Origin: Chamaelirium japonicum
Lineage: Eukaryota; Streptophyta; Magnoliopsida; Liliales; Melanthiaceae
Reading direction: 5' to 3'
Length of the DNA stretch: 64,000 bases
Assembly (NCBI GenBank): GCA_947650365.1
Contig: OX393549.1
Coordinates: forward strand, 37,157,098-37,221,097
The translations under genes were made by a program, and so were the position numbers. The notes beneath the pieces were generated by a model. It did not search any database, was not told the DNA's origin, and saw only the letters and a program-made list of their open reading frames with translations. Positions 13,966-60,165 of this stretch are shown piece by piece (the stretch's first letter is position 1; every line of letters begins with the position of its first letter).

Positions 13966-14978
<1,013 letters not shown>

Positions 14979-17150: not shown

Positions 17151-20048
17151 TGTTAAGTCTCCAAATAATGCATTTTATCGCTTATTTCTTACTGCATTAT
17201 CATCGCTTTTCTACGTAAAACTTTTCATATACTCGTAAAGCGCATTATTTTCTTTGCACCAATGCATAGTAGACTTTAATACGGACATAACGGTATATTG
17301 GTTCGCACTTATACGATACATGCATGAAAAATACGGAGCTCGGTAGTTCAAATTATCATTTTTATCGATAATCATATTGGATCCTTACACGCGTCATTTC
17401 ATATGTGATTTTCAGGGAATTGACCCGATACTCGACATAGTTGGATAAAGGACATCATGATAGTATGGTGGACATTCTCACGACGAGTCAACGGAGGTCG
17501 CACAGCTCGTTTGGAGGCCTATGCTGAAGAACGATAAGGAAAAGGGTACTTGGAAGAGTCTAGCCAATGGAAGACTTCAACAAGCCGCTGCAACGCACGA
17601 CTCGCATCAGAAGATGACTACATGAATGCAAAGGAGCGATGATGGATTTGATGATGAGTTTGGATGATGGTGATTACGTTTCCCACGTGACCCATTTGAC
17701 CTGAAACCAGACAACCCGGGTCCGTCCTTCGCTCTTTCTTATTTCACCACCACACCTATCGCAACCATCCAATGGGACCCATGCATCCGACCCGACTTCA
17801 ACTCCAAAACATGCACGTCGTGAAAACCCTTGATATCCAATCTCTTTAGCAAATCCCTCGCACAAACCCGAGATCCATGCATACCCATGCCCAATGTTGC
17901 GGTTCGGGTTTCGGTCGAATTTTCGGAGTCCATGACCACCCCGAACCTGATAATATCTGACCCGGCCATCATGATATCCAAGCACGTCCCCGAGCCATGT
18001 GCGACCCATGTATGAGCCCAGCTGGCCGAGGCCCGTCCTCATAAATTCACTCTTACCCGTCCGATCGCATCGCATCCATCTAGTTCATAACCTCATGCTC
18101 CATAAGCATCGCATCCGTCTTATCACAGCCATCCATGAAAAATCCCATGCATGAGATCGAATCGCCCACGTCCTTACTCCTTCCCATCCGGACTAAATCG
18201 CAGCCGTCCGTGTGCTTCCCCCCTCACATGCAGCCATTCAAACCCAGCTCCCTCTTTTCTTCCCACTTTAATCACAGCCGTTCGTGTAACTAAACCCCAT
18301 GCATAACCACCTTCTCGGAAAACCTGATAACAGGTGTCCCGTGCAAACCCATTGCACCCAGCTCCATCCCTCGCAGCCGTCCGCGGACTAAATCGCAGCC
18401 GTCCGAGGACCCGACCCATGCGCCCAGCCTCTCTCCAGTCCCGTCCGACTTCCTCTCTCTTTCTCCAGACCGACCCAGCCGCCCCAATCACAACCGTCCG
18501 AGCCCATCGTTCTCTCCTTTCCTTATCTCTCTCTACCCGATCATCTCTCTCCCCTCTCTTTCCATAACTACCCGAGCACCCCCCGAACTTCTCTCACTAA
18601 ACTGACATCACAGCCGTCCGCACTTCCCTCATGTCCTCTCGGATTCTCTCCTGATCTCTCTCTCCGTTCTTCTCTCTAACCCGGGACGTCTCTCTCTCTT
18701 TCCTTATATCTCTCTCCACCCGATCGTTTCTCTCTCTCTTCATTACCATATCCGAGACCCACGACCCATCTTCTCTCTATCCCGTTCTCTTCTCTCTCTA
18801 GATCCCTCACGATCTCTCATCCGAACGTCTCTCTCTCTCCTTGCCTAAACCGGACTCCCTCTTCTCTATATAGGGGCTGAACCTAAGAAGACGTGAGGAG
18901 ACGGGGGAACTATTAGCCGAAATACATCAAACCAAAAAGGCCGGATTTTTCCACCATCTAAGCCCGGACCTTCATCACTATTACCACCCGGATCATAACC
19001 CGGACCTCCACCATCTTCCACCACCATCCCGAACTTCATCCACCACGAGCCGGACCATCACCTCATCACCACCCGGACCATAATCACCTTCCACCATCTC
19101 CGGACACACGAGGCTTGCTCCTTCACCAACCGGGCCGGACCATCTTCATCAACGCCACACACCATCGTCTCCGAGCCACGCTTCACCGTCGCCAAATCCA
19201 CGCCGTCACCGTCATCGCACGTCGTCACCATCGCCGGAAGCCATCATCCACGAGCACCATCCTTCGTATTTCTTTAATGGAGTTTGCTTGCACTTATGCT
19301 TCTATGTTAAACTCTATGAACATGCACAGCTAAACCCCTAGCTAAGGCTATGGGGGATGCCTAGTAGTTATTATGTGTTTCTTTGATCAGTAATAAAGTT
19401 TTAATTTTCGTATGATTGAATCCTATATGAATGACACTATTCTAAGATGTATGGCATCTAGCTTGCAAATTTGTTTGATTCCGTATTGACTCCGGGCATA
19501 CGTAATACTTGCGAATCCCTGTGGCTTGATGACACGAGCTTCACGAGTCTCTCGTCATATAATCTTCAATTTATATTAGTTTGTATGACATATGCATATC
19601 TTTAGAAATCGTTGCATGTGTACAAGTCCTTTTGATTGCACATCGACTCCGGGCATGTGCAATGCTTAAAGACCTCTGTAGCATGCATCCGAATTAATTT
19701 TCATGCTACCGTCATATATACTTATTGATCAAAAGAATGCATAATACACTACTGGGTTGAACCCGGATGCCTTAGCCTCATCTCCATCGTAACCTCCTTT
19801 AATTAATTGCAATATTTAGTTCTAGTTAAATTAGTAACGTAGCTTCATCATTCGTGCTCCACTCTCAGTGGAAAACCCTGATTTGCACTCACGTTCACGC
19901 ACTGTCATCACATTAGTTCCCATTAGTCCTTCAGTCCCTGTGGAATCGACCTCGGACTCACCGAGATTACTACTTCGCTACACACCCTATACTTGGGGTT
20001 AAATTGCACTTTTTAGTCCCTTAATCAGGACTACTCAAAGTTGTAGCA
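17151..20048 (+). repeat. 5' LTR of the young gypsy element
   Basis: It starts TGTTAAGTCTCC and ends GTTGTAGCA. A TATATA box lies at 18,867-18,872 (CTTCTCTATATAGGGGC), so U3 is about 1.7 kb and transcription should start near 18,900. AATAAA at 19,392-19,397 could direct polyadenylation. U3 has many CAGCCGTCCG-like words between about 18,110 and 18,610. The downstream R/U5 part is rich in CCGGACC and CCACCAT. ORFs inside the LTR are duplicated exactly in the other LTR and have no recognisable domain. Confidence 0.95.
18867..18872 (+). promoter_or_regulatory. TATA box in 5' LTR
   Basis: TATATA sits in a CT-rich context at the expected junction between the pyrimidine-rich U3 and the leader. The same box is at 26,654-26,659 in the 3' LTR. 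Confidence 0.6.
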
Positions 20049-24937: not shown

Positions 24938-27835
24938 TGTTAAGTCTCCAAATAATGCATTTTATCGCTTATTTCTTACTGCATTATCATCGCTTTTCTA
25001 CGTAAAACTTTTCATATACTCGTAAAGCGCATTATTTTCTTTGCACCAATGCATAGTAGACTTTAATACGGACATAACGGTATATTGGTTCGCACTTATA
25101 CGATACATGCATGAAAAATACGGAGCTCGGTAGTTCAAATTATCATTTTTATCGATAATCATATTGGATCCTTACACGCGTCATTTCATATGTGATTTTC
25201 AGGGAATTGACCCGATACTCGACATAGTTGGATAAAGGACATCATGATAGTATGGTGGACATTCTCACGACGAGTCAACGGAGGTCGCACAGCTCGTTTG
25301 GAGGCCTATGCTGAAGAACGATAAGGAAAAGGGTACTTGGAAGAGTCTAGCCAATGGAAGACTTCAACAAGCCGCTGCAACGCACGACTCGCATCAGAAG
25401 ATGACTACATGAATGCAAAGGAGCGATGATGGATTTGATGATGAGTTTGGATGATGGTGATTACGTTTCCCACGTGACCCATTTGACCTGAAACCAGACA
25501 ACCCGGGTCCGTCCTTCGCTCTTTCTTATTTCACCACCACACCTATCGCAACCATCCAATGGGACCCATGCATCCGACCCGACTTCAACTCCAAAACATG
25601 CACGTCGTGAAAACCCTTGATATCCAATCTCTTTAGCAAATCCCTCGCACAAACCCGAGATCCATGCATACCCATGCCCAATGTTGCGGTTCGGGTTTCG
25701 GTCGAATTTTCGGAGTCCATGACCACCCCGAACCTGATAATATCTGACCCGGCCATCATGATATCCAAGCACGTCCCCGAGCCATGTGCGACCCATGTAT
25801 GAGCCCAGCTGGCCGAGGCCCGTCCTCATAAATTCACTCTTACCCGTCCGATCGCATCGCATCCATCTAGTTCATAACCTCATGCTCCATAAGCATCGCA
25901 TCCGTCTTATCACAGCCATCCATGAAAAATCCCATGCATGAGATCGAATCGCCCACGTCCTTACTCCTTCCCATCCGGACTAAATCGCAGCCGTCCGTGT
26001 GCTTCCCCCCTCACATGCAGCCATTCAAACCCAGCTCCCTCTTTTCTTCCCACTTTAATCACAGCCGTTCGTGTAACTAAACCCCATGCATAACCACCTT
26101 CTCGGAAAACCTGATAACAGGTGTCCCGTGCAAACCCATTGCACCCAGCTCCATCCCTCGCAGCCGTCCGCGGACTAAATCGCAGCCGTCCGAGGACCCG
26201 ACCCATGCGCCCAGCCTCTCTCCAGTCCCGTCCGACTTCCTCTCTCTTTCTCCAGACCGACCCAGCCGCCCCAATCACAACCGTCCGAGCCCATCGTTCT
26301 CTCCTTTCCTTATCTCTCTCTACCCGATCATCTCTCTCCCCTCTCTTTCCATAACTACCCGAGCACCCCCCGAACTTCTCTCACTAAACTGACATCACAG
26401 CCGTCCGCACTTCCCTCATGTCCTCTCGGATTCTCTCCTGATCTCTCTCTCCGTTCTTCTCTCTAACCCGGGACGTCTCTCTCTCTTTCCTTATATCTCT
26501 CTCCACCCGATCGTTTCTCTCTCTCTTCATTACCATATCCGAGACCCACGACCCATCTTCTCTCTATCCCGTTCTCTTCTCTCTCTAGATCCCTCACGAT
26601 CTCTCATCCGAACGTCTCTCTCTCTCCTTGCCTAAACCGGACTCCCTCTTCTCTATATAGGGGCTGAACCTAAGAAGACGTGAGGAGACGGGGGAACTAT
26701 TAGCCGAAATACATCAAACCAAAAAGGCCGGATTTTTCCACCATCTAAGCCCGGACCTTCATCACTATTACCACCCGGATCATAACCCGGACCTCCACCA
26801 TCTTCCACCACCATCCCGAACTTCATCCACCACGAGCCGGACCATCACCTCATCACCACCCGGACCATAATCACCTTCCACCATCTCCGGACACACGAGG
26901 CTTGCTCCTTCACCAACCGGGCCGGACCATCTTCATCAACGCCACACACCATCGTCTCCGAGCCACGCTTCACCGTCGCCAAATCCACGCCGTCACCGTC
27001 ATCGCACGTCGTCACCATCGCCGGAAGCCATCATCCACGAGCACCATCCTTCGTATTTCTTTAATGGAGTTTGCTTGCACTTATGCTTCTATGTTAAACT
27101 CTATGAACATGCACAGCTAAACCCCTAGCTAAGGCTATGGGGGATGCCTAGTAGTTATTATGTGTTTCTTTGATCAGTAATAAAGTTTTAATTTTCGTAT
27201 GATTGAATCCTATATGAATGACACTATTCTAAGATGTATGGCATCTAGCTTGCAAATTTGTTTGATTCCGTATTGACTCCGGGCATACGTAATACTTGCG
27301 AATCCCTGTGGCTTGATGACACGAGCTTCACGAGTCTCTCGTCATATAATCTTCAATTTATATTAGTTTGTATGACATATGCATATCTTTAGAAATCGTT
27401 GCATGTGTACAAGTCCTTTTGATTGCACATCGACTCCGGGCATGTGCAATGCTTAAAGACCTCTGTAGCATGCATCCGAATTAATTTTCATGCTACCGTC
27501 ATATATACTTATTGATCAAAAGAATGCATAATACACTACTGGGTTGAACCCGGATGCCTTAGCCTCATCTCCATCGTAACCTCCTTTAATTAATTGCAAT
27601 ATTTAGTTCTAGTTAAATTAGTAACGTAGCTTCATCATTCGTGCTCCACTCTCAGTGGAAAACCCTGATTTGCACTCACGTTCACGCACTGTCATCACAT
27701 TAGTTCCCATTAGTCCTTCAGTCCCTGTGGAATCGACCTCGGACTCACCGAGATTACTACTTCGCTACACACCCTATACTTGGGGTTAAATTGCACTTTT
27801 TAGTCCCTTAATCAGGACTACTCAAAGTTGTAGCA
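24938..27835 (+). repeat. 3' LTR of the young gypsy element
   Basis: It is 2,898 bp, starts TGTTAAG and ends GTAGCA, and is followed by the TGAAT target duplication. I saw no substitution relative to the 5' LTR in the stretches compared, and all ORFs within it recur unchanged. Confidence 0.95.
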
Positions 27836-41778: not shown

Positions 41779-43414
41779 ATCTCCCACTAGGTCTAACAAG
41801 AAAAAACGGTGTTGAGCTCCGTAGCTTCTATATATTGCCCAAAAGCCTTTGTAGGAATTCCCTAAAGGAATTGGCAACATTATCTGCAGATGCCACCTCA
41901 GTACCGCTACTTGCATTTCCTCCTAAAACTGTCAGATCAAGTGAAGTTTGTACTTGATGGGTTTCCCCTAAAGGTGGTACTTTGGCTCTTTGGACCTTGC
42001 TTACCGCTCTTCTGTTGTCATAACAGATATTTGAGCCTCTGGTACGCCTGGTTCTCCAAGAACTTCCTGAGCCATACCACCTATTAGACTACTTCGCATG
42101 CAACAACGTATTTAGCCACTGTGGTGGAGTCTGTGATGCACTTGCTTCACACTCTACCAACTACCGCTTCTAATCCCAAGATAAAAATAATTTATGAAAT
42201 CGATTATCTGGAACGCACATCTGACACCAAAGTCAGACCCTATACGTCTAATCGATATCAGGACCTGTGAAGTGCAAGGTAACTTACAATCCTCACTTAA
42301 TGAGGACTTCTGAGTATACCCATCACACATCGGTCCAATGATCTTGACCCGGGTTCAACTAAAACCGGCCCATCATCCTACTGCACAAGAGATATTTAGT
42401 TTCGTAAACTGAATCTGGCTAAAATCTTATCTTCATGCATAGTCTGTGACAGCAAGAGAATCTTGCTCTGGTAATATCGAGTTACCTTGATTCCCACAAC
42501 ATAACTCGCCTCACTAGGATCTTTCAAATCGAATTATGATGACTATAAACCTTTATCGTAAACAATATTCCTATATCATTTTCAATTAGTAGAATATCAT
42601 TAACGTAAAATATTACATACATCTTTGTAGCCTTTTCACCTTTCTTGTACCTACTTGGTTTATCTTCATTCTGATCAAATCGTGTGAGTGGATTCCCTTG
42701 ATCAAAATAGATATTTCAACTTGGATGCTTGTATTAGTCCATAAATGGACCTTTGCAATTTGCATTCCATATCTTCCTGACCTACTGACATAAATACTGA
42801 GGTTGCATCATCCATATGTCATTTCCGAATTCCCGTTATGGAATAACTATCTTGAGATCCATCTATCAGATCTTCCAACTATAATGGGTTGCGATGGATT
42901 AAGAGGATCCGAAATAGACTTAGGCATAGCTACTAGTGAGAAGGTTTTGACATAGTCAATCCCTTCTCTCTTGGTAACTAATCTAGCTACTTAAGTCTTA
43001 ACCGGGTTCTCTTTTTATACACCCATTACACCCAAAAAAGGTGATAGTGTAATAAGAGTCGAAACACTTCTAAGGGATATTGATGCAGGCTTACTATCAT
43101 AGTCTTTTGTCAGTCAGAGCTGTCGGAAGCTCCCACTACTTCATCGTAGCTCTAAGGATCATTCTCCTGAAACTTTGGATTAACCATCGAAGTTTCTTCA
43201 TAGTAAATATCAAGAGCTCTAATTATCCCACAATGATGAGGTGGTGGTAGTACAAAGTGAATCATTTCTACAGTATCTGATATACTAGTTTCTTGTATCA
43301 TCTACTCCCGCTACGTTTTCAGATGCACACTCTCTACCAGTACCCAGTAGTTTACCTAGAACTACCTTACCAGTAAACTTATGGTCCATAATATAATCTT
43401 GGTCTAGGTAGATT
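41779..43414 (-). pseudogene. Copia pol, RT/RNase H part, decayed
   Basis: Read on the minus strand, the segment around 42,560-42,640 encodes MYVIFYVNDILLIENDIG, which is the copia reverse transcriptase active-site region (normally YVDD) with one Asp changed to Asn. Frames around it are broken by stops and shifts, so this is dead. It ends at the chromovirus insertion and continues at 60,166. Confidence 0.75.
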
Positions 43415-45420
43415 CCGTCTCGTCGAAACGATCAAAAAACCTATACAAACTTTTATGTTTTGAGCACGTTTAGACTATTTTAAAATTTAAAGAAAAAATG
43501 GCCAATACAAGGTTTTGAACTATAGACCTATTAGCAGCACTTATCTTTTCCCCCTCTAACCAGAAAACCCTTAACACTTTTATATCTAAGTTTAAGAAAA
43601 ATAAAAATATATAGTAGGTGGGGGGAGGAAGATCAAACGTCAGTGAAACCGTAGACCGTTGGTTTCTGATCGGACGAAAACAGTCGCTCAGCTGAATAAA
43701 TGAATATAATAAATGGCCGTTTTGCAGTTAAGACCTTAGACCTTTGATATTCCTAAAAAAGGCCTATAAAAACCCCCCTTAGTCCCCAGGGTTCTGCACT
43801 CAAGTTTTCCCTCGAAACCCGTGCCCAACCCCCTCCTTAGCCACAGCCACCACCACCGCCCGTCGCCTACCGGACCGCCGCTTGTCGGACCACCGTACCA
43901 GCCGCCGCCGGTCGCCGCTTGCCGGACCGCCGTACCCGTCGCTGGTCACCGCCGTACCCGTTGCCGGTCGCCGCCGTACCGTCGCTGGCTACCGCCGATC
44001 GCCGTCCGCCACCGGCCATGTGTATACGGTAGGCCAATAAATTTAATTTTTATTTCGTGGGCAGAAGCCCAATAAAAAAAACTTTTAAGTCTCTGGGCCG
44101 AAGCCCATTAGCCATTCAGCCTCTGGGCCTAAGTCCATTAGTCATTAAACATAGTCTGGGCTGAAGCCCATTAAACATCGTGGGCTGAAGCCCAATAAGC
44201 CCAAATAAACTGTGATAAAATGAATCGGCCTTCGTTAAGCTGAACCGTTATTACTGAAAGTAACCTGACCTTTTTACTAAAGGCAGACCACCCATTTAAA
44301 TTCCGTCAATGCCGGCTATTTTGGCCATACCAGGAGCAAACGAACTCCGAATTAAGTTCCGTCTGTGGCCACAGTTTCAGAATAAAAAACTCTACAAACT
44401 GGGTATAAATTCAAAGTATTTTAGAAATAATCAAAATACCCCTAAACGATAAAATCTATTAAATAAATTAGTTTAAGTAAACAAATATAAGGAATCCACA
44501 TCGGAATTCGTTTTTAGTGAATCCTTGTAAAAATTATCGTAAAAACTAACAAAATATAGTAATATATTTCAGGTTGTGAGCTTTCTAAGGTATCCTCACA
44601 AAAGAAAGATTCTTCGACGCTTCAGGTAGGGGACTAAACTGAGTTAATTCTTGCTAAGTGTATGATATTGAAATAACGGTAGATTGCTATGGACTTGTAA
44701 ATTTTTGAGATATATGATCACTTATTTGGGTATGGGTCTAGCCCTGGCTGAGGCCAAAAAGTAACCTGGATGTGGGTCTAGCCCTGACTGAGGTCAAAAA
44801 GTAACCTGGGTGTGGGTCTAGCCCTAGCTGAGGCCAAAAAGTAACCTAGGTGTGGGGCTAGCCTAGTCTTGGAACTAAAAGAACCTAGGTATGGGGCTAG
44901 CCTTATTGAGACAAAAAGTACTCGAGTAAGGCTTGAGATTTCTACCCCAGCTGAGGCCAGAAAGGGAATCAGGTGATCAATGTCTTTTTAATTACTACTC
45001 ATAGTCATGTTCACTGCTTCTTCAGTACATATATCTTAGCATGAATAAACTAAGTTATTAGGTGAGTCAGTGGATTAGACTCACCCCCCTACAGGTGTTA
45101 TGAACCCTACAGAGACTGATCCTACAGGACAAGGAGAAGGAGGAGTGAATAGAGAATGAACCGGAGGGAGTTGAAGATCCTCTCTACACACCATTCTATG
45201 AGGATGCAGGAGCGACGATATGAAGAATTGATGTTGAAATTAAGTCTTAGGCTTTTATATTTCAAGCGATGTATCAAAACCTTATAATATAATATATGGT
45301 ATTGAATAAGGGCTCAATTAATTCCATACTTCAATGGGATTTAATTTATATCAAGTTTTCTTCTAAACACCCCAGTATTATACGGGTTGATTTAAATCCG
45401 TAAAATACCGGGGCGTTACT
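43415..45420 (+). repeat. 5' LTR of the chromovirus, lacking its first ~94 bp
   Basis: It begins inside the LTR at CCGTCTCGTC, which corresponds to 58,131 of the 3' LTR, and abuts the target sequence directly. The end reads GGGGCGTTACT rather than ...TTACA. TATAAAAA lies at 43,765. A 40-bp direct repeat (TGGGT(A/G)TGGGTCTAGCCCTG...) runs at about 44,735-44,960. GGGC(C/T)GAAGCCCA words repeat at 44,090-44,200. Confidence 0.85.
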
Positions 45421-48780: not shown

Positions 48781-49294
48781 AGTAATAGAAGCACAAACGT
48801 CAAATTCCGAACTGCAGGGAATTCGATACAAACTAGAAAATGAAGAAACTATAGAAAACTAGGCTCTCGGGTCAGATATAGGACTGAGATTTCGAGGTAG
48901 ATTAGCAGTCACTGATGCTCCTTATCTGCAAGACGATATATTAACCGAAGCTCATCAATCAAAATTTTCTATTCATCCGGGGGAGAACAAAATATATCAC
49001 AACCTTAAACGAAACTTCTGGTGGAGTGGTATAAAGAATGATGTAGCCCAGTTTATGTCGAAATGTTTCACGTGTCAAAAAGTGAAGGCTGAGCACAGAA
49101 GACCACCTGGGTTATTACAACATCTTCCTATAGCAGAATGGAAAAGGGAACATATAACCATGGATTTCGTTACCGGTTTTCCTATAACGAGAAAGGGAAA
49201 TGATTCAATCTGGGTAATTGTGGACCGATTGACAAAGTCAGCCCATTTTCTACCCCGGAAAACGACTGCGTCCACTAAAGATGATAGCACCTTA
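48781..49294 (+). pseudogene. Chromovirus integrase, N-terminal half
   Basis: The HHCC zinc-binding region is visible (EAHQSKFSIHPG and KCFTCQKVK), followed by the first catalytic Asp context (ITMDFVTGFP) and RLTKSAHFLP. It is cut at codons DST-L by the Tat-like element. The last five bases, CCTTA (49,290-49,294), are duplicated at 57,074-57,078. Confidence 0.85.
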
Positions 49295-49893
49295 TGTGGG
49301 TGCAAAATTTATACCGGACCAGATCAGAGCGGCATGGGCCCGCGCAACGGCCCAAGTGGGTAAGCCCGCCCGGGTTCATGGGCCCACTATACGGGGCTCG
49401 CAGATCAAGCCCTCCCCCTTATTGGGCCCGAACAACGGCCCAATAAGGGCCCAGCAAGGAGGCCCAGAACCAGTGCCACGTCATCAGTACCATGTCATCA
49501 CTACCATATCGGGCACGTGCCTACGCTATAAAAGGACCCCAAGGCATCCAGGAAAGGGGTTGATCATTCGATCAGAGGAAGAGAGGATTCAGAGCTAGAG
49601 CTTACTTCTCTCCTCCTAGTTTCTTTTCTTGTTGCTCCGTGCAACCCCCACTGTAAAAAGCTTCTCTCGGCCTGTCGAGAGAACGCTTCCCACCTTTATA
49701 TTTATTATAGTGGAAACCAGGTGGCACCTCTCGCCCGGAGACGTAGGTCGTAAGACCGAACTTCGACAACAACTCTGTGTGTCATCTCTCTCCTTCTCAA
49801 CTTTATAATCTCTAACTCTACAAACCATCCTCATTCGATCAAGGCTGTGGGGCGGGGTTCTCGATCAAGGCGGCTCGGAAATTCTCCCCTACA
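49295..49893 (+). repeat. 5' LTR of the Tat-like element
   Basis: It is 599 bp, TG...CA. U3 has a 13-bp perfect stem (49,416-49,428 with 49,437-49,449; arms start CCCTTATTGGGCC). The TATA box is TATAAAA at 49,527-49,533. Downstream a hairpin TTCTCTCG / CGAGAGAA (49,662-49,669 and 49,676-49,683) lies in the likely R/U5. Confidence 0.93.
49527..49533 (+). promoter_or_regulatory. TATA box of the Tat-like LTR
   Basis: TATAAAA sits in the context CTACGCTATAAAAGGACC, with a CACGTG G-box 12 bp upstream. It is conserved at 56,706-56,712 in the 3' LTR. Confidence 0.7.
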
Positions 49894-49897
49894 ATCT

Positions 49898-49916
49898 TTG
49901 GCGCCGTCTGTGGGAT
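49898..49916 (+). promoter_or_regulatory. Primer-binding site of the Tat-like element
   Basis: TTGGCGCCGTCTGTGGGAT starts a few bases after the LTR. It is the PBS form usual in plant Tat-type elements. I do not name the tRNA with confidence; the primer should end ...ACGGCGCCA. Confidence 0.7.
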
Positions 49917-50033
49917 GTCGATAGAGGTCTTACCCACACCTCTACCGACTCCTATTCAGCTTGTGGTGACGAGCCACAAGTCCTCCTCCAAATCAACCTC
50001 AACGCCTTCATCACGCCGACATTAACTCGCTCA

Positions 50034-51686
50034 ATGGTGAAGGCCAGCACCAACCCACCAAAGGCGGGTGCTGACCGGACAATCGACGTGCTAATTGAAG
50101 AAGAACAAGAAGTCTCGATTGCAACCAATCGAAGAAATGTTCATAAGCGACTGGGGCCACAAGGAAGTCATCCGGGAAGCCGCAGCAATCAGCAGGACCC
50201 ACCATTCCCGAGACAACGATCTGGCAAAGAGCACGCCACCCAAGGAGACAACGGTTCAGCTACATACCAAATTTCGGCTGCTGATTTCCAGCTGCTGAAC
50301 CTCCTCAAGAGGAACACAGCCCTCGAGCAAGAGAGGGATTCCCTAAAGAAGGCGGTTGAAAGAGCGGGGGTTGTGGCCTACAACTCTCTAGCTACTGATG
50401 AAGACCAACCAAGGACTCGCCCGGCCGTAAGTCATCATCTTGAAGAACCACATGTGCCAAAAATCGAGAGGCATCAGGTATCCACACAAGCACCAAGAAA
50501 AACGGTGTGGAATCGCCTCAACATCGATGGTGCACCAAGCTATCACCGAGAAGGATCGCCTCAGTCAATAGGGTCCACTGGATGTTCTATCCCTTCGCAC
50601 ATGAAAGCAACAGATGCCCGCGAGCTGCTCAACCGACTAAGGCATACTGCCGATATGGGACGCCGCCATCAAGACTGCAGGCAGCTAATCACCTCGGTGG
50701 GGCCACTACATCTCAAGGTTCTTGCAATACCATTTCCTATGGATTGGCGAACACCGAGCCTGCCAAAGTTCAACTGCATCCAGAGAGACCCTACTCTCCA
50801 TATCCTAGCCTACAGGCAGGCCCTGACGCCCTACGAGTATGAGAACCATGTTCTCTGCCGTATGTTTGCGGGAAGCCTCGAGGGACCTGCCCTCGACTTG
50901 TACTACACACTGTCTATCGGTACGGTGGCCACATTCAAAGAGTTGGCTGAACTCTTCATGGACCATTATCGGCTAAACTTAAAGCCAAAAAAGAGGCTGG
51001 ATACACTCTACCAGCTGAAGATGGGCTCCGACGAGTCTCTAAGGAACTTCACGATGAGGTTTCATAATGAGCATTCTGAGCTCACCGATCGCTCCTATAA
51101 TGAGGAGGCCATCATGCTGGCATTCCAGAATGCTATCCGGCCAGAGCTCCACGTCTACACCGACTTCATCCGGCATCCTCCTAATAACTTGGAAGCGATA
51201 TTCAAGCGCGTACAGCGGGAGATAGAGGTGGAAGACAATCAGCGGGCCAGAAGACTACGCGAGCCCCGCGAGTCTCGTGACTCCCGAGATAAGAAAGATG
51301 ATAAAGCTCTGAATGAAGCACACTACAAGAAGTCTGCCCATGCCGCGTCCGACCAAAAGGTACAGGCCAAAAGGTACAATGAAGATCCGAAAGCCCCTCC
51401 AGCAAAAAAGAGGCGAACTCCAAGGGAGCAAAGGGTGTTCACTGAGCTGAACACCTCCATTGAAGACATCTTCGCCTACTTGCAAAACGAGCCCTTTTGC
51501 AAGTGGCCCCAGCCTCTCCCTCCAAATTCCGACCAGGCGGGAGATACGACAGCCTACTGCGAGTTTCATCGCAGCCATGGCCACCCAACCTCTACATATC
51601 GGAAGCTAAAGCATCACATCGAAGACCTGATCCAAGAAGGGCGGCTCTATGGCTACCTCACTAATAAGGAACCGGGTCGAGAGTAG
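50034..51686 (+). CDS. Gag protein of the Tat-like element (550 aa)
   Basis: This is an intact frame starting MVKASTNPPK. It has a charged, low-complexity N-terminal third, a retrotransposon gag capsid domain at roughly residues 240-385 (FNCIQRDPT, FAGSLEGPALDLYY, LAELFMDHY, LYQLKMGSDESLRNF and FQNAIRPE), and a basic region (KRRTPREQR). The C-terminal zinc-finger-like segment CEFHRSHGHPTSTY near residues 508-521 is odd: the usual last cysteine is tyrosine, so zinc binding is doubtful. It is followed by HHIEDLIQEGRL, as in Tat gags. The ORF ends at TAG with no protease or RT after it. The role is particle assembly and RNA packaging; enzymes must be supplied by another element. Confidence 0.88.
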   Translation: MVKASTNPPKAGADRTIDVLIEEEQEVSIATNRRNVHKRLGPQGSHPGSRSNQQDPPFPRQRSGKEHATQGDNGSATYQISAADFQLLNLLKRNTALEQERDSLKKAVERAGVVAYNSLATDEDQPRTRPAVSHHLEEPHVPKIERHQVSTQAPRKTVWNRLNIDGAPSYHREGSPQSIGSTGCSIPSHMKATDARELLNRLRHTADMGRRHQDCRQLITSVGPLHLKVLAIPFPMDWRTPSLPKFNCIQRDPTLHILAYRQALTPYEYENHVLCRMFAGSLEGPALDLYYTLSIGTVATFKELAELFMDHYRLNLKPKKRLDTLYQLKMGSDESLRNFTMRFHNEHSELTDRSYNEEAIMLAFQNAIRPELHVYTDFIRHPPNNLEAIFKRVQREIEVEDNQRARRLREPRESRDSRDKKDDKALNEAHYKKSAHAASDQKVQAKRYNEDPKAPPAKKRRTPREQRVFTELNTSIEDIFAYLQNEPFCKWPQPLPPNSDQAGDTTAYCEFHRSHGHPTSTYRKLKHHIEDLIQEGRLYGYLTNKEPGRE

Positions 51687-51870
51687 GAGAGGCTGCAGCA
51701 GTGCAAAAAAAAAAAGTCAATGTAATACATGGATGCATAATCGTAACGTCCGCTGGGCAACTTCTGAAAAAGTGTAACCGCTACTTTGTTGTATCAATAA
51801 AGTATCTCTTTTTTCTCAAAATCAAATCTCTCGAAGTTCGATTCCACCATGTTAAGGCATAAAAAAAAAA

Positions 51871-52425
51871 GGTTCCTGGCAACCCAGGTCAACCAAAGAC
51901 CTTCGATGCCGCCCATTCAAGTCGGAAGCTCGAAGACAATTCGGCTACGCCCTCTCGAGGCTAAAGTCCGATAAAAAGGCTCCTGGCAACCCAGGTCAAC
52001 CAAAGACCTTCGATTCCGCCCATTCAAGTCGGAAGCTCGAAGGCAATTCGGCTACGCCCTTTCAAGGCAAAAGTCCGATAAAAAGGCTCCTGGCAACCCA
52101 GGTCAATCAAAGACCTTCGATTCCGCCCATTCAAGTCGGAAGCTCGAAGGCAATTCGGCTACGCCCTCTCGAGGCTAAAGTCCGATAAAAGGCTCCTGGC
52201 AATCTAGGTCAACCAAAGACCTTCGATTCCGCTCGTTCAAGTCGGAAGCTCGAAGGCAATTCGGCTACGCCCTCTCGAGGCTAAAGTCCGATAAAAAGCT
52301 CATGGTAACCCAGGTCAACCAAAGACCTTCGATTCCACCCATTCAAGTCGGAAGCTCGAAGGCAATTCAACTACGCCCTTTCAAGACGAAAGTCAGATAA
52401 AAATGCTCCTGACAATCCAGGTCAA
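51871..52425 (+). repeat. Tandem array, 107-bp unit, ~5.2 copies
   Basis: Units start with GGCTCCTGGCAACCCAGGTC at 51,871, 51,978, 52,085, 52,191 and 52,297, plus a diverged partial unit at about 52,403. They lie in the 3' untranslated part of the Tat-like element, directly after gag. Confidence 0.93.
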
Positions 52426-52507
52426 GCTAAACTATCAACTATACTTATCCGAGGCGATGAGAATAAGTCCAAAGCAGACGTCGTCGCTCTGACATGCACC
52501 AAGTTCA

Positions 52508-53245
52508 AGGAGACATCCTTGGCACTCGAAGACAAAGTCCGAGGTGACCAATGCCTCGGCACTCTACAAGCCCAAGGCCCAGCCCTTGGCACTCGAAGAC
52601 AAAGTCCGAGGTGACCAATGCCTCGGCACTCTACAAGCCCAAGGCCCAGCCCTTGGCACTCGAAGACAAAGTCCGAGGTGACCAATGCCTCGGCACTCTA
52701 CAAGCCCAAGGCCCAGCCCTTGGCACTCGAAGACAAAGTTCGAGGTGACCAATGCCTCGAGACTCTACAAGCCCAAGGCCCAGCCCTTGGCACTCAAAGA
52801 CAAAGTCCGAGGTGACCAATGCCTCGGCACTCTACAAGCCCAAGGCCCAGCCCTTGGCACTTGAACACAAAGTCTGAGGTGACCAATTCCTCGGCAATCT
52901 ATAAGCCCAAGGCCCTGCCCTTGGTACTCGAAGACAAAGTCCGAGACGACCAACGCCTCGGTACTCTACAAGCCCAAGGCCCAGCCCTTGGCACTCGAAG
53001 ATAAAGTTTGAGGCGACCAATGTCTCGGCACTCTACAAGCCCAAGGCTCATCCTTTGGCATTCGGAGACAAAGTCCGAGGCGACCAACGCCTCGACACTC
53101 TACAAGCCTAAGGCCCAGCCCTTGGCACTCGAAGACAAAGTCCGAGGCGACCAACACCTCGGCACTCTATAATCCCAAGGCCCTACCCTTGACGCATAAA
53201 GATAAAGTCCGAGACGTCGTCGCCGACATATTGGCATTCGATCAA
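52508..53245 (+). repeat. Tandem array, 67-bp unit, ~11 copies
   Basis: Units contain CTTGGCACTCGAAGACAAAG, TCCGAGG(T/C)GACCAA and CTACAAGCCCAAGGC. The first five or so are nearly identical, and divergence grows to the right. The 67-bp period makes overlapping short ORFs every 67 bp on both strands, which are not genes. Confidence 0.93.
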
Positions 53246-53725
53246 AAGTCCAAACTTAGTCTTGTCACTCAGGTCCAAGCATTAGATTGTCAATGGCCAT
53301 CACCTTTTCTCGACGACTAACGGTTCCAAACCGGTCAGGGGGTGGTTGGTCTAACTCTGTCAGTGCGTGTCTCCACTCTAGTGTAGTCGATGGTGGGTAA
53401 CACAGGATAAAATGGTGCTTCCTTGATCCTGGCCAAGTCAACACCCTCACATGACCGTAGTACCTGGTGAATACAGTAACCAGGTGCGGTAATACATTGG
53501 GTGAAGACCGGCTGGCCATCATGCGGCGTCATCCTAGATTATCTCTAAGAAACCCCCTTGCATATAGCATTGTCCCTCGCCGATATCCTCGCGCACTAGC
53601 GTTTTACCGAAAAAGTGTCAGTTTCAAATGGGGTTGAAATTTGAAAACACACAATTTTCAATACCGACACTTTTTGGCCTCTTCTAGCAGCCCCAATAAT
53701 GGGGTGTCGGTATCAACAAGTAGCT
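53246..53725. other. Non-coding link between arrays in the Tat-like element
   Basis: No domain is recognised. It ends where hairpin repeats begin. GCGTTTTACCGAAAAAGTGTC and ACCGACACTTTTTGGC words near 53,590-53,690 are related to the arrays further right. Confidence 0.5.
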
Positions 53726-54047
53726 CCCCCCCTCGGTTTCACACAAAAACCGAGTGGGGAAGGGGTGACGGCACACCATCAGCAGCATACCTCTCGGTTT
53801 CGCTCGAAAACCGAGTGGGGAAGGGGTGACGGCACACCATCATCCGCACACCCCTCGGTTTCGTCAGAAAACCGAGAGGGGGTGTGTGTTGGCATGAACA
53901 AGCAACCCCCCCTCGGTTACGCACAAAAACCGAGTGGGGAAGGGGTGACGGCACATCAGCAGCACACCCCTCGGTTTCGTCAAAAAATAGAGAGGGGGTA
54001 TGTGTCGGCATCAACAAGCAACCATCAGCACACAGAAAACCGAGAGG
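53726..54047 (+). repeat. ~62-bp hairpin-bearing repeats (5 copies)
   Basis: Each unit has CTCGGTTT...AAAACCGAG as a stem of about 8-9 bp with a short loop, followed by (T/A)GGGGAAGGGGTGACGGCAC or a GGGGGTGTGTGT(T/C)GGCAT variant. Stems start near 53,732, 53,794, 53,854, 53,910 and 53,970. Confidence 0.85.
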
Positions 54048-54074
54048 GGGTGAATACCGAAAAAGTTACTCGTC

Positions 54075-54395
54075 AAGGCGAACAATGTTTCACGTCCACT
54101 TTGACCGTTTTTTCGGTGCCTACACAACGACACCTTATACGCATTCATCCGATATGCGTATGAAAAGTTATGACTGACGGAAGGTTTCAAGGTCTTTTTC
54201 TTCGAAGACATGCATTGGAAATATTACACGCAAAGGTGCCCGATGCTTTACGTCCACTTTAACCAGTTTTTCAGCTCTGACGCAACGACATATTATACGC
54301 ATTGATCCGGCGCACGTATGAAAAACTACGACGGTCAAAAGTTTTCGAGTTAATTTTATTCGAAGACTAGCATCAGAATAATTACACGGTAATGA
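54075..54395 (+). repeat. 156-bp direct repeat, 2 copies
   Basis: ATGTTTCACGTCCACTTT at about 54,086 and ATGCTTTACGTCCACTTT at about 54,242 begin two units sharing ACGCAACGACA, ATACGCATT(C/G)ATCC and a CGTATGAAAA word. They are clearly diverged from each other. Confidence 0.75.
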
Positions 54396-55170
54396 CGGTT
54401 ACGCTCAAGCCCTCAGTTTGGTTCGTTACATGCCCAACTCGTAGCAGGTCGAGCACCGGGTATGAAAGAAGAACTCGCACCTCTCCCGGCCCGTGCGTAG
54501 GTGCTCTTGGCGACAACCGATCAGAACGGGAATAGGGGGGCGAATGAACCAAATACCTCCCACGCATCCTCCTCATGTAATTCGTCACGCGGCGACAATG
54601 ATGAACCGAACTCATCCTCCCCCTCCGCGTACTCTGTCTCGCAGCGGACCGAGGCGACCCCTCCGCGCGTGCTGTCTCACAGCGACCCGAGGTAACCCCG
54701 TATGTCCTCTTCGCAGCAGCCCAAGCTAACCCAGAGGTGGTCAGACGAACCGCACTCCCCTTCTCTCAGCGCGCTTCCTCTAGCAGCCTCTCGATATGGC
54801 CCAAGGGGGTCGGACGAATCGGACGCGTGTGCCCCTAGTTGCTGTGCAACCACGGACAAAGAAGAGGAGGCAGAGGCGGCCGAACCCCCTAATCTCTCTT
54901 CTCCGACGCGACTGCAGCAGCGTGAGGGTGATGGACGGCTCCGGCAACACTCGGGGGAGGTCGAACGCTGCTCCCTCCCCCCTTCTCTTTTCTCCTCCGG
55001 CTCGCAAGTACCATGGGGAGGAGATCCGACTCCAGCCCCCGCGTGCACCCTTGACGCGCAGCAACGGAGAGAGGGAGAGGTCTAATCCCCCTCATGCTTC
55101 CCTCTCGTCGCACAGAAGAAAAGAGAGGGAGATCGCCTGCTGCCGCTGCTGCTATCTTTTTCTTGAAGAC
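54396..55170 (+). other. GC-rich captured or unassigned sequence
   Basis: The base composition and Arg/Ser/Pro-rich frames differ from the rest of the element and resemble plant gene 5' UTR or low-complexity coding DNA. No domain is recognised. It leads directly, without a visible intron, into the kinase fragment. Confidence 0.4.
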
Positions 55171-55419
55171 CAGTTCCACGCCCACCTGCGCCGCGAGATC
55201 GAGATCCAGCACGGCCTCAGCCACCCCAACGTGCTCCGCCTCTTCGCCTGGTTCCAAGACTCCACCCGCATCTTCCTCGCACTTGAGTACGCCACCCGCG
55301 GGGAGCTCTACAAGCTCCTCAAGACCCTCCGCCACTGCTCCGAGCAGCTTGCCGCCACGAGCGGATACGTGGTGGCGCTGAAGGTGATCTTCAAGGAGAA
55401 GCTGGAGAAGCACCAGCTC
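55171..55419 (+). pseudogene. Aurora-kinase fragment with permuted segment order
   Basis: 55,171-55,359 encodes [20 protein letters not shown], then LRLFAW, and ends [14 protein letters not shown]...EQLAAT: the alphaC helix to alphaD part of an Aurora kinase N-lobe and hinge. It is followed in frame at 55,360-55,419 by [20 protein letters not shown], the beta3/VALK segment that normally stands immediately before the first one. VALK lysine and the alphaC glutamate are present, but the glycine loop, catalytic loop (HRD) and DFG are absent. Aurora kinases phosphorylate mitotic substrates; this fragment cannot be an active kinase. It lies inside the Tat-like element with no introns. Confidence 0.8.
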
Positions 55420-55690
55420 CAACCCACCAGGCCACCACCGCTGAGCCTACGCCAGCCCGCCGCTCCGCTGAGCCTGTGCCAGCCGGCCACCGCCTTCGCC
55501 TTCCCGCACTCGACGCCCGGCCACCGCCGGCCACCTCTTCGTGCCCTGCTCCCCGCACTGGCCCCTATGCCCGAAGCCGGCCCGAGCCCACCGCCGCCGC
55601 CTGCTTGTGCCCCGGCCATCGCGCGGCGCGCACCGCCGCCCGCCGACCTCCACGCTGTCGCTGCTGTTGCTGCTGTACCACGCGAACCAG
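55420..55690 (+). other. GC-rich sequence between kinase fragment and A-tract
   Basis: The open frame continues but encodes a proline/alanine/arginine-rich, low-complexity sequence of no recognisable family. It may be captured UTR or unrelated DNA. Confidence 0.4.

Positions 55691-55721
<31 letters not shown>
55691..55721 (+). repeat. A31 tract
   Basis: 31 consecutive A residues follow the GC-rich captured segment and precede AG-rich sequence with two copies of a GAAAGACAGAGAGAGGGACGTC block (about 55,740-55,865). Confidence 0.95.
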
Positions 55722-55722
<1 letters not shown>

Positions 55723-55955
55723 AAGAAAGAAGGCAAGAAACAGAGAAAGGAAAGACACAGAGAGAGGGACGTCCGCTCTCCCATGCGAGTCAAAGCCAAA
55801 GAAAGGGGAAAGAGAGAGAGAAAGGAAAGACAGAGAGAGAGGGACGTCCGCTGTCCCATTTGAGTCAAAGCCAAAGAGGAAAGAGAGAGAGAGAAAGGAA
55901 AGAGAGAGCGGGGTAATCTCACGTGAATGAAAACCAAAGAGGAAAGAGAAAGAAA

Positions 55956-55992
<37 letters not shown>

Positions 55993-56005
55993 CTATTCTC
56001 TCACC

Positions 56006-56340
56006 AAAAGGATCTCGATACCCTCTCGGTATGCTCTCGGTACCCTCTCGGTCAGGAAACACACTGTTTTTTTGGAAACACCCCCTTGCAAAACCGAGAC
56101 TTTTTGGCTTGCACCAAAAGGGTCTCGGTACCCTCTCGGTATCCTCTCGGTCGGAAAACGCACAGCTTTTTCGGAAACACCCCCTTGCAAAACCGAGACT
56201 TTTTGGCTTGCACCAAAAGGGTCTCGGTACCCTCTCGGTATCCTCTCGGTATCCACTCGGTCGAAAAACACACTGCTTTTTCGGAAACGCCCCCTTGCAA
56301 AACCGAGACTTTTTGGCTCGCGCCAAAAGGGTCTCGGCAT
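56006..56340 (+). repeat. ~110-bp tandem repeat, 3 copies
   Basis: Units start AAAAGG(G/A)TCTCG at 56,006, 56,116 and 56,215, with a partial one at 56,325. They contain CCCTCTCGGTATC sub-repeats and end AAAACCGAGACTTTTTGGC. Unit length varies (110, 99, 110) with the number of CTCTCGGTA sub-units. Confidence 0.9.
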
Positions 56341-56473
56341 CGGCAGAAGGAGACTCTGCTAATACGAACCGCGGCACCGACAACCCTTGCCAACCATGCT
56401 AGGATCTTAAGGCGTTTGCACCTTGGAATCCCAGCCGGCCCAGGGGGCCCTGACCCGACTGGGAGGGGGTAAC

Positions 56474-57073
56474 TGTGGGTGCAAAAATTATACCGGACCA
56501 GATCAGAGCGGCATGGGCCCGCGCAACGGCCCAAGTGGGTAAGCCCGTCCGGGTTCATGGGCCCACTCTACAGGGCTCGCAGATCAAGCCCTCCCCCTTA
56601 TTGGGCCCGAACAACGGCCCAATAAGGGCCTAGCAAGGAGGCCCAGAACTAGTGCCACGTCATCAGCACCACGTCATCACTGCCATATCGGGCACGTGCC
56701 TACGCTATAAAAGGACCCCCAAGGCATCCAGGAAAGGGGTTGGTCATTCGATCAGAGGAAGAGAGGATTCAGAGCTAGAGCTTACTTCTCTCCTCCTAGT
56801 TTCTTTTCTTGTTGCTCCGTGCAACCCCCACTGTAAAAAGCTTCTCTCGGCCTGTCGAGAGAACGCTTCCCACCTTTATATTTATTATAGTGGAAACCAG
56901 GTGGCACCTCTCGCCCGGAGACGTAGGTCGTAAGACCGAACTTCGACAACAACTCTGTGTGTCATCTTTCTCCTTCTCAACTTTATAATCTCTAACTCTA
57001 CAAACCATCCTCATTCGATCAAGGCTGTGGGGCGGGGTTCTCGATCAAGGCGGCTCAGAAATTCTCCCCGACA
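56474..57073 (+). repeat. 3' LTR of the Tat-like element
   Basis: It is 600 bp, starts TGTGGGTGCA, ends CCCCGACA, and is preceded by GGGAGGGGGTAAC as PPT. The U3 stem (56,595-56,607 with 56,616-56,628) and TATA box (56,706-56,712) are conserved. Confidence 0.93.
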
Positions 57074-57987
57074 CCTTATACATGAAGGAAATTGTTAGAC
57101 TCCACATGATTCCGGTAACTATTGTGTCCGACAGGGATCCTTATTTTACCTCTAAGTTCTGGAAGAGTTTACATAAAGCATTGGGGACAAAATTGACCAT
57201 GAGTACTGCTTATCATCCTCAAACTGACGGACAATCAGAAAGAGTAATACAAATCTTAGAAGACATGCTAAGATCTTGTGTGATGGATTTCAAAGGTAGT
57301 TGGGAAGATTTTTTACCCTTGATAGAATTTACTTATAACAACAGCTACCAATCCAACATACAAATGGCGCCTTTTGAAGTCTTATATGGAAGACCCTGCA
57401 GATCACCAGTTTGCTGGACAGAAGTGGGAGAGAAGAGCATTATGGGACCTAAAATAATCCAAGAAACTACAGACAAAATAAAAATTATTCGGGCCAATTT
57501 ATTAAAAGCTCAGAGCAAACAGAAGAGTTACGCAGACAATCGAAGAAGACCTCTGGGATTTGAGGTAGGAGACTTTGTTTTTCTAAAGATTTCTCCTAAG
57601 AAGGGTATACAGCGTTTTGACCTCGAAGGTAAACTTGCTCCCAGATATATTGGACCCTATGAAATATTGGGGAAAGCTGGACCAGTTGCATATCGACTGG
57701 CATTACCCTTAAATTTGGCTAATATACATACAGTCTTTCATGTATCCATACTTCGCAAATATGAGCCTGATTCTTCTCACATTCTGGAAGATGAAAATAT
57801 CAGTATTCAATCAGATGCCTCTTACGTGGAAGTACCTATGAGAATTTTAGACACCAAAAATAAAGAATTGTGAACCAAAACTATACGATTGGTAAAAGTA
57901 CTATGGCAACATCACAACGAGGAAGAAGCTACTTGGAAATTGGAGTTAGAAATACAAAAGCAATACCCACACTTGTTTAACAGCTAA
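57074..57987 (+). pseudogene. Chromovirus integrase C-terminal half and chromodomain
   Basis: It resumes at the duplicated CCTTA and encodes integrase with the remaining catalytic residues (VSDRDPYFTSKFW; TAYHPQTDGQSERV), the GPYEILGKAGPVAYRL segment and VFHVSILRKY. The C-terminal chromodomain (PMRILDTKNKEL, stop, TKTIRLVKVLW, EEATWKLE) is broken by TGA at 57,871-57,873, where an arginine codon is usual (CGA to TGA). The natural stop is at 57,985-57,987. Chromodomains of this clade are thought to steer integration to heterochromatin. Confidence 0.85.
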
Positions 57988-58036: not shown

Positions 58037-60165
58037 TGTAACATCCCAAAATAAGTTAATAATTTAAATCTATATAATAAGAATTTTTGATAAAAAAATT
58101 CAAAATAAAAATCGGACTACGACATTGCATCCGTCTCGTCAAAACGATCAAAAAACCTATACAAACTTTTATGTTTTGAGCACGTTTAGACTATTTTAAA
58201 ATTTAAAAAAAAATGGCCAATATAAGGTTTTGAACTAGAGACCTATTAGCAGCACTTATCTTTTCCCCCTCTAACCAGAAAACCCTTAACACTTTTATAT
58301 CTAAGCTTAAGAAAAATAAAAATATATAGTAGGGGGGGAGGGGGGGAGGGGAGATCAAACGTCAGCAAAACTGTAGACCGTTGGTTTCTGATCGGACAAA
58401 AACAGTCGCTCAGCTGAATAAATGAATATAATAAATGGTCGTTTTGCAGCTAAGACCTTAGACCTTTGGTATTCCTAAAAAAGGTCTATAAAAACCCCCC
58501 TTAGTCCCCAGGGTTCTGCACTCAAGTTTTCCCTCAGCTCGAAACCCGTGCCCAACCCCCTCCTTAGCCACAGCCACCACCACTGCCCGCCGCCTACCGG
58601 ACCGCCGCCCGCCGCCTGTCGGACCACCGTCCACCACGGCCGGTCGCCGCCATCGGTCATCGCCGAACGTCGCCTGTCGGACCGCCGTACCCGCCGTCGG
58701 TCGCCGTCGTACCCGCTGCCGGTCGCCGCCGTACCGCCGCCACTGGCCACGTGTATACGGTAGGCCAATAAATTTAATTTTTATTTCGTGGGCCGAAGCC
58801 CAATAAAAAAAACCCTTAAGCCTTTGGGCCGAAGCCCATTAGCCATTCAACCACTGGGCCTAAGCCCATTAGCCATTAAACATAGTCTGGGACGAAGCCC
58901 ATTAAACATCATGGGTCGAAGTCCAATGAACCCAAATAAACTGTGATAAAACGACTCGGCCTTCGTTAAGCTGAACCGTTATTACTGAAAGCAACCTGAT
59001 CTTTTTACTAAAGGCAGACCAACCATTTAAATTCCGTCAATGCCGACTATTTTGGCCATACCGGTAGCAAATGAACTCCAAATTGAGTTCCGTATGCTGC
59101 CACAATTTCAAAATGAAAAACTCTACAAACTGGGTATAAATTCAAAGTATTTTAGAAATAACCAAAATACCCCTAAAGGATAAAATCTATTAAATAAATT
59201 AGTTTAAGTAAACAAACATAACGAGTCCACATCGGAATTCATTTCCGGTGAATACTTGTAAAAATTATCATAAAAACTAACAAAATATAGTAATATATTT
59301 CAGGTTGTGAGCTTCCTAAGGCATCCTCACCAGAAGAAAGATTCTTCGATGCTTCAAGTAGGGGACTAAACTGAGTTAATTCTTGCTAAGTGTATGATAT
59401 TGAAATAACAGTCGATTGCTATGGACTTGTAAATTTTTGAGATATGTGATCACTTATTTGGGTGTGGGTCTAGCCCTGGTTGAAGCCAAAAAGTAATCTG
59501 GGTATGGGTCTAGCCTTGGTTGAGGCCAAAAAGTAACCTGGGTGTTACTGGGTGTGGGTCTAGCCCTAGCTGAGGCCAAAAAGTAACCTAGGTGTGGGGC
59601 TAACCTAGTCTTGGGACTAAAAGAACCTAGGTGTGGGGCTAGCCTTGTTAAGACAAAAAGTACCCGGGTAAGGCTTGAGATTCCTACCCTGGCTGAGGCC
59701 AAAAAGAGAATCGGGTGATCACTGTCTTTTTAATTACTACTTATAGTCATGTTCACTGCTTCTTCAGTACATATATCTTAGCATGAATAAACTAAGTTAT
59801 TAGGTGAGTCAGTGGATTAGACTCACCCCCCTACAAGTGTTATGAACCCTACAGAAACTGATCCTACAGGACAAGGAAAAAAGGAGGAGCGAATAGAGAA
59901 TGAACCAGAGGGAGTTGAAGATCCACTCTACACACCATTCTATGAGGATGCGGGAGCGGAGATGTGAAGAATTGATGTTGAAATTAAGTCTTAGGCTTTT
60001 ATATTTCAAGCGATGTATCAAAACCTTATAATATAATATATGGTATTGAATAAGAGGCTCAATTAAGTCCATATTTCAATGGGATTTAATTTATATCAAG
60101 TTTTCTTCTAAACACCCCAGTGTTATACGGGTTGATTTAAATCCGTAAAATACCGGGGCGTTACA
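58037..60165 (+). repeat. 3' LTR of the chromovirus (2,129 bp)
   Basis: It starts TGTAACATCCC and ends GGGGCGTTACA. A TATA box is near 58,487. It contains the 40-bp TGGGTCTAGCC... repeat (59,456-59,700) and the GGGC(C/T)GAAGCCCA words (58,820-58,940), as in the 5' LTR. It shows clear substitutions and indels against the 5' copy. Confidence 0.92.

Follow-up and report, generated by a model that had tools for sequence, protein, structure and literature searches.

An Aurora kinase fragment carried by an LTR retrotransposon of Chamaelirium japonicum most probably goes back to a circular RNA (circRNA) of one exon, which was copied into DNA and taken up while the element was being reverse transcribed. 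From the sequence comparisons given here, we put the probability of this reading at about 85%. The fragment lies in a window of 64,000 nucleotides, the whole stretch of DNA that was analysed, and an earlier note on this stretch had proposed that the element captured a circRNA. That idea is supported, and the capture itself we infer.

The features of the window and of the related loci are collected in Table 1. The kinase piece is internal to an element that has two LTRs and a 5-bp target-site duplication (TSD), the makeup of an LTR retrotransposon with a captured host gene, and its placement inside a retrotransposon in the earlier note is thereby borne out. Since the LTRs and the TSD explain both ends of the element, capture by a Pack-MULE, a CACTA element or a Helitron was set aside. 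The gag frame matches Retrotrans_gag (PF03732, E 1e-5) in Pfam, and in the list of open frames nothing as long as pol lies between gag and the 3' LTR. LTR substitution in grasses proceeds at 1.3e-8 per site and year, a rate that, applied to the divergence of the two LTRs, gives an age of about one million years for the insertion. The frame that continues to the right of the element encodes an SH3_Tf2-1 domain, and for this reason the kinase-bearing element seems to have inserted within another Ty3-type element. Direct copies at window positions 43414-45419 and 58130-60164, 91% identical, flank the studied element on both sides and are perhaps the LTRs of an older element hosting the insertion. 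Elsewhere in the window, two 2898-bp direct copies (17151-20048 and 24938-27835) are 100% identical and are perhaps the LTRs of a very recent insertion, and a long tandem array, whose unit measures about 110 bases to judge by the offsets, occupies positions 8085-13975.

Table 1. Positions of the window, the host element, the kinase piece and the Aurora-3 loci. Plain numbers count from the first base of the window; entries with a C prefix give the contig.
Feature	Position	Strand	Remarks
Window	C1:37157098-37221097		1.52-Gb assembly, 3253 contigs
Target-site duplication CCTTA, left	49290..49294	.	
Kinase-bearing LTR retroelement	49295-57073		7.8 kb, gag-bearing
5' LTR	49295..49893	+	97.7% identity to 3' LTR (586/600)
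gag open frame	49809..51686	+	stop-to-stop; first bases within 5' LTR
Putative primer-binding site (TGGCGCC...)	49899..49915	+	our assumption, assigned by position only
Two tandem arrays within element	51867..53335	+	units of 107 nt and 67 nt
Kinase-derived DNA, whole	55169-55421	+	slightly longer than 55171-55419 of the earlier note
Aurora-3 exon 2, positions 53-243	55169..55359	+	element border after TTGAAG at 55168
Back-splice-type junction	55359..55360	+	donor end ...GCCACG on acceptor end AGCGG...
Aurora-3 exon 2, positions 1-62	55360..55421	+	last four bases TCCA common to element
Element resumes	55422..55439	+	ACCCACCAGGCCACCACC, also in kinase-free relative
3' LTR	56474..57073	+	
Target-site duplication CCTTA, right	57074..57078	.	
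Aurora-3 locus, normal order	C4:33448811-33449054		
Aurora-3 locus, normal order	C12:63782843-63783086		

Positions 55171-55419 encode Aurora kinase with the part from helix C to helix D first and the beta-3 part second. The location given previously holds, except that the kinase DNA reaches slightly beyond it at both ends. The best PDB match of the piece is an Aurora kinase (E 1.2e-18), Pfam assigns it to Pkinase (PF00069, E 4.1e-9), and at least 68 proteins match it at E <= 0.001, the best at 6.8e-30, and plant Aurora-3 or Aurora kinase is the name given to many of these. As had been described, the two parts are joined in frame and without filler at 55359/55360, with SEQLAAT ending the first part. 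Their order had also been read correctly as reversed: by motif patterns, none of the 123 public proteins with both motifs found (among 170 proteins listed) has the order of the window, and an AAT/SGY-like junction occurs in none of the 170 proteins among the matches listed. The spacing from VALK to LRRE, across the supposed border between the two parts, is constant in 129 of 130 proteins among the matches listed, the sole exception (P0058) being a gene model without part of that stretch.

A genome search with 249 bases of the piece scored only the best candidates, so its counts are lower bounds. The 15 matches returned comprise nine full-length copies including that of the window, a tenth that an insertion has split (two matches) and two loci in normal order (four matches). 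At the latter, on C4 and C12, the coding parts of Aurora-3 follow one another in normal succession. The C4 gene looks complete, and its matches span C4:33441179-33449056, with no stops within the exons read. In-frame stops were reported for the C4 and the C12 matches, and those of C4 are located in the intron ends beside the exon. A partial Aurora-3 protein of the genome, 145 aa long, has 86-89% identity with sequences of palm and banana and two of rice relatives, from among those retrieved, which points to a monocot host.

Both kinase parts are contained in a single 243-nt exon, exon 2, in the C4 and the C12 gene alike, bounded by GT...AG introns. The flanking introns of both parents are 76-80 nt long, introns 1 and 2 of the C4 gene each being 80-nt GT..AG introns. 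Intron 1 ends in CAG, exon 2 of C4 begins with AGCGGGTACG and ends with GCCGCCACG, and intron 2 begins with GTGAG; the last bases of the exon are GCCACG in both genes. The edges are alike in other plants, in which some gene models or frames enter the intron before SGYVV or after AAT, and some gene models skip the exon after exon 2, again marking the same edges. Because one 243-nt exon holds both parts at C4 and C12, and the edges and the spacing are the same elsewhere, the two parts are not separate exons. Of the claim that exons stand in reversed order without introns, the reversal and the lack of introns remain, but what is permuted is one exon and not two; the two-exon model is ruled out by the single exon 2 of both parental genes. 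As expected for a circRNA-derived pseudogene, then, there is a parental gene with normal order and with introns at the junction sites. Over 243 sites (241 for the copy L019), each piece has 6-10 bases unlike those of the C4 exon and 17-21 unlike those of the C12 exon, which makes the C4 gene the likely parent and the C12 gene a less likely source. As a separate observation, an unusually long open frame (1934 aa) runs through parental exon 2 at C4:33448793-33449056 (L009).

When the C4 exon is doubled and read from position 53 to 243+62, the kinase DNA of the window aligns to it without gaps and with 7 mismatches in 253 bases. Eight other copies also align ungapped on the doubled exon, with 8-12 mismatches, and the split copy is consistent in alignment. 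In all ten copies found, the 3' end of the exon is joined to its own 5' start (243/1), these being the exact exon ends of both the C4 and the C12 gene, and intron bases at the junction are present in none of the ten. One base (G) is common to both sides of the junction, and in L016 and L017 a single base next to it is changed. In L017 and L018, ACCAGTTCCA stands at both ends of the piece, which amounts to one turn plus 10 nt, 4 of them shared with the element; these two copies do not have 6G>A, 164T>C and 221T>G, substitutions common to the other eight. At exon positions 52 and 168, where the C4 gene has T and C, all ten copies found are different from it. Given the ungapped mapping to 53-243 and then 1-62, together with ACCAGTTCCA at both ends, the copy comprises, on alignment grounds, the full exon circle, with its opening near position 58, and 6-10 nt in addition. 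An exact back-splice junction, a mark of circRNA-derived pseudogenes, is present in the genomic copy.

The earlier note had expected a junction that coincides with parental exon ends, recurs in other copies of the element and is free of intron remnants in parental or sister copies, and this is what the ten copies have. It had also expected the outer ends to match exon ends, and here it was mistaken: they meet inside exon 2. Outer ends that meet inside the exon are not what the note had named as a refutation; they imply one complete turn, which is a stricter sign of a circle.

The borders between the piece and the element were placed with 37 kinase-free stretches (L020-L056), none of which holds the piece and not all of which reach across the left border. 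On the left, which is placed well, nine of the 37 (L020, L021, L049-L052 and L054-L056) read TTGAAG and immediately after it CCC, at the point from which the copies run on with exon position 53; a strict pattern recovers seven of these nine, and in L053 one base at this site is altered. The border lacks exon base 52, and the sequence that element and exon share there is interrupted, so the switch on this side is not clean. The right border is placed by two relatives only: L053 (TCCAACCCACCAGGCCACCACC) is identical to the copy L017 over 22 of 22 bases and L050 agrees at 21 of 22, TCCA included in both, and TCCA is also positions 59-62 of exon 2. The shared sequences at the borders (TCCA at the right border; GAAG and CCAG at the left one, where a base was lost) are so short that they could be chance matches.

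In twelve further kinase-free relatives (L037-L048), a good match starts only at GGCCACCACC. The sequence to the right of the start of GGCCACCACC therefore probably derives from another element lineage, and a further template switch at that point is implied. In L050 and L053 the two border sites are about 500-550 nt apart, so it would appear that element sequence was also lost in the capture or that two element RNAs were involved. The copy has no sequence from outside the circle next to it, as in circRNA-derived pseudogenes, but element sequence on both sides (on the right, from the two relatives). No poly(A) is present at the right (3') border of the piece. Capture of a poly(A)-tailed mRNA, with the A-tract near 55692 as its tail, was rejected, since this tract is about 270 bases downstream, beyond the element sequence that the kinase-free relatives share.

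The exact 243/1 join requires that the donor of exon 2 was spliced to its own acceptor, and a closed exon circle as template explains the length of one turn. The main rival is a linear RNA in which exon 2 is repeated, arising by trans-splicing of two Aurora-3 transcripts or from an allele with a duplicated exon 2. Such an RNA would have the same exact junction without a circle, and both trans-splicing and exon repetition are known to occur. It leaves unexplained, however, why the piece is one exon plus 6-10 nt long and why exon 1 or exon 3 is absent. With random ends within two exon copies, a length of 243-253 nt has a chance of 4.4%, and both present Aurora-3 genes have one exon 2 each in the stretches read. 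We consider this alternative unlikely.

Still less probable is an event at the level of DNA, in which exon 2 was taken up as genomic DNA (through eccDNA, gene conversion, or tandem duplication and deletion) and was trimmed later. Plant elements do acquire host DNA by other routes too, according to the part of the review PMC13317346 available to us, but respect for splice sites is not expected of DNA events, and the junction retains no intron base in any of the ten copies although the parental genes have introns of 76-80 nt there. A chance jump of the reverse transcriptase within an ordinary linear Aurora-3 mRNA, in which it left exon 2 at the 5' edge and resumed at the 3' edge, or the separate capture of two mRNA pieces, is strongly disfavoured: LTR elements are thought to gain mRNA by template switching at short matches (PMC5408686, in the part available), and a single G is common at the junction, but it would be a coincidence that each side lies on an exon end. 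If 825 nt and 8 exons are assumed, a random two-point join hits exactly these ends with a probability of about 3e-6, and any donor/acceptor pair with one of 2e-4. The outer ends would also have to coincide at the same point of the exon.

For the circular template that we prefer, the following course of events is proposed. Exon 2 (243 nt) of an Aurora-3 pre-mRNA would have been back-spliced onto itself, and the resulting circle would have been on hand during reverse transcription of the RNA of the LTR element. The minus strand, moving leftward on the element RNA, would have switched at the shared TCCA to exon positions 59-62, copied the circle from 58 to 1, across the back-splice junction to 243 and then down to 53, and returned to the element RNA at the GAAG/CCAG-like site. 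A halt after one turn plus 6-10 nt could be due to RNase H, which by then would have degraded the template already copied. The chimeric element would then have transposed normally, giving rise to the ten copies found. We infer that a circle existed, that it was in the particle, in which direction and order the switches took place, and that RNase H acted. As to how the exon might circularise, complementarity of the introns beside exon 2 (-22.2 kcal/mol) is not above that of shuffled sequence (-26.5 +/- 4.4 over 300 mononucleotide shuffles), so circularisation by intron pairing finds no backing here, and no inverted repeat flanks exon 2 of the C4 gene from about 3 kb upstream to 3.8 kb downstream. 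With introns this short as well, nothing hints at strong signals for circularisation.

At least ten copies of the piece are present in the genome, nine full-length and one split by an insertion. Both element ends are contained in the fetched DNA of six of the ten (the window copy, L011, L012, L014, L015 and L016), the others being L013, L017, L018 and L019. Exact 5-bp TSDs flank five of these six (window CCTTA, L011 AGGGG, L012 CTAGG, L014 CCAAT, L015 AGGCC), and four of five bases agree in L016. The TSDs differ among the six copies, which means that the piece was mobilised with the element to several places; the LTR pairs of these copies are 96.2-98.5% identical. The pieces have no stops in the frame of the exon, and each carries 2-5 silent and 4-6 replacing changes. 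In L013, L014, L015, L017 and L018 the LTRs are 81-89% identical to the window LTR and the kinase piece is 95-98% identical, from which it seems that the piece was passed between LTR subfamilies by recombination. The ten copies trace to one capture event and do not each provide independent evidence for a circle.

Host-like fragments are also found in kinase-free members of the family. L022 (G000:C7:64970414-64973624) has an uninterrupted frame, VTALDGLVNMNSLFTI... (VTALDGLVN...NSLFTI...), at the site flanked by the repeats and the 3' LTR. This fragment, presumably a MEE60-like plant membrane protein, gave 32 matches in the genome search and none in Pfam; a parent gene was not found, the candidates L035 and L036 carrying the fragment beside element-type repeats. 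L030 (G000:C12:42764572-42767705) contains an antisense fragment with an F-box and a KIB1-4 beta-propeller (Pfam E 4.4e-8 and 7e-13), and L033 (G000:C6:36676155-36679288) contains an F-box/KIB1-4 fragment nearly the same as that of L030. Since the L022 and L030/L033 fragments occupy about the same place, the element family seems to capture host sequence repeatedly.

Mammalian circRNA-derived pseudogenes, from circRFWD2 and other circles, were reportedly described by Dong et al. in 2016. In the available parts of the papers, such pseudogenes are described in mouse and human (PMC5345220, PMC6965350), 39 of 42 circRFWD2 pseudogenes are without poly(A) (PMC5345220), and LTR sequences are noted in the flanks of mouse circRNA retrocopies (PMC5408686). 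The kinase piece is like these, as far as those parts go, in that the genomic copy keeps the back-splice junction, has no poly(A) and occurs in many copies. Unlike them, it comes from a plant and rides inside an LTR element that has its LTRs and a TSD, its borders are placed by kinase-free sister elements, and its circle is complete, consisting of one exon copied for one turn plus 6-10 nt.

To our knowledge, the pieces captured in Bs1 and in other plant LTR elements stand in mRNA order, and the permuted kinase piece differs from them in this respect. In carrying and moving host gene segments, the element is like maize Bs1 and other plant capture elements (PMC13317346, in the part available). 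That review, from 2026, deals with how plant elements capture genes and discusses transduction and template switching; in the part available, circRNA has no word match and "circular" has one, on circular DNA. Abnormal template switching in Veju, where the reverse transcriptase switches between unrelated packaged RNAs and foreign sequence enters, resembles the proposed capture (PMC13317346, same part), except that the foreign template would here be a closed circle and the copy accordingly permuted and about one turn long. Back-spliced RNA of maize CRM1 likewise combines circular RNA with a plant LTR retrotransposon, but there the element's own RNA is back-spliced, whereas here the circle of a host exon would be copied into the element (PMC7010299, in the part available). 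For PMC11810925, on maize, the match stood in the reference list only, in the part available. A limited literature search, mostly of listings and abstract openings, turned up, among the papers listed, none in which a plant LTR element holds a host circRNA, and none on a circRNA-derived pseudogene in plants or on one with borders resolved inside an LTR element. As far as these sources go, the plant LTR-element case with resolved borders is new, circRNA pseudogenes as such being known from mammals.

The finding suggests a route by which circular RNAs enter the genome and then spread. The mode of integration of circRNA pseudogenes is called unknown for mammals in the available parts of PMC5345220 and PMC6965350; here, the LTRs, the TSDs, the borders placed by sister elements and the one-turn copy point to strand transfer onto the circle. 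A circular template would join the known routes of gene capture. It is possible, and we suggest it tentatively, that host circRNAs are a repeatable class of template for the reverse transcriptase of plant LTR retrotransposons, with circles entering the particle, being copied for one turn limited by RNase H, and spreading as permuted exons within a family and, by recombination, between LTR subfamilies. A genome-wide test is now simple, by looking inside LTR elements for permuted exons with exact donor-to-acceptor joins. Transcripts of such genomic copies could also mimic back-splice reads in circRNA surveys of Chamaelirium japonicum.
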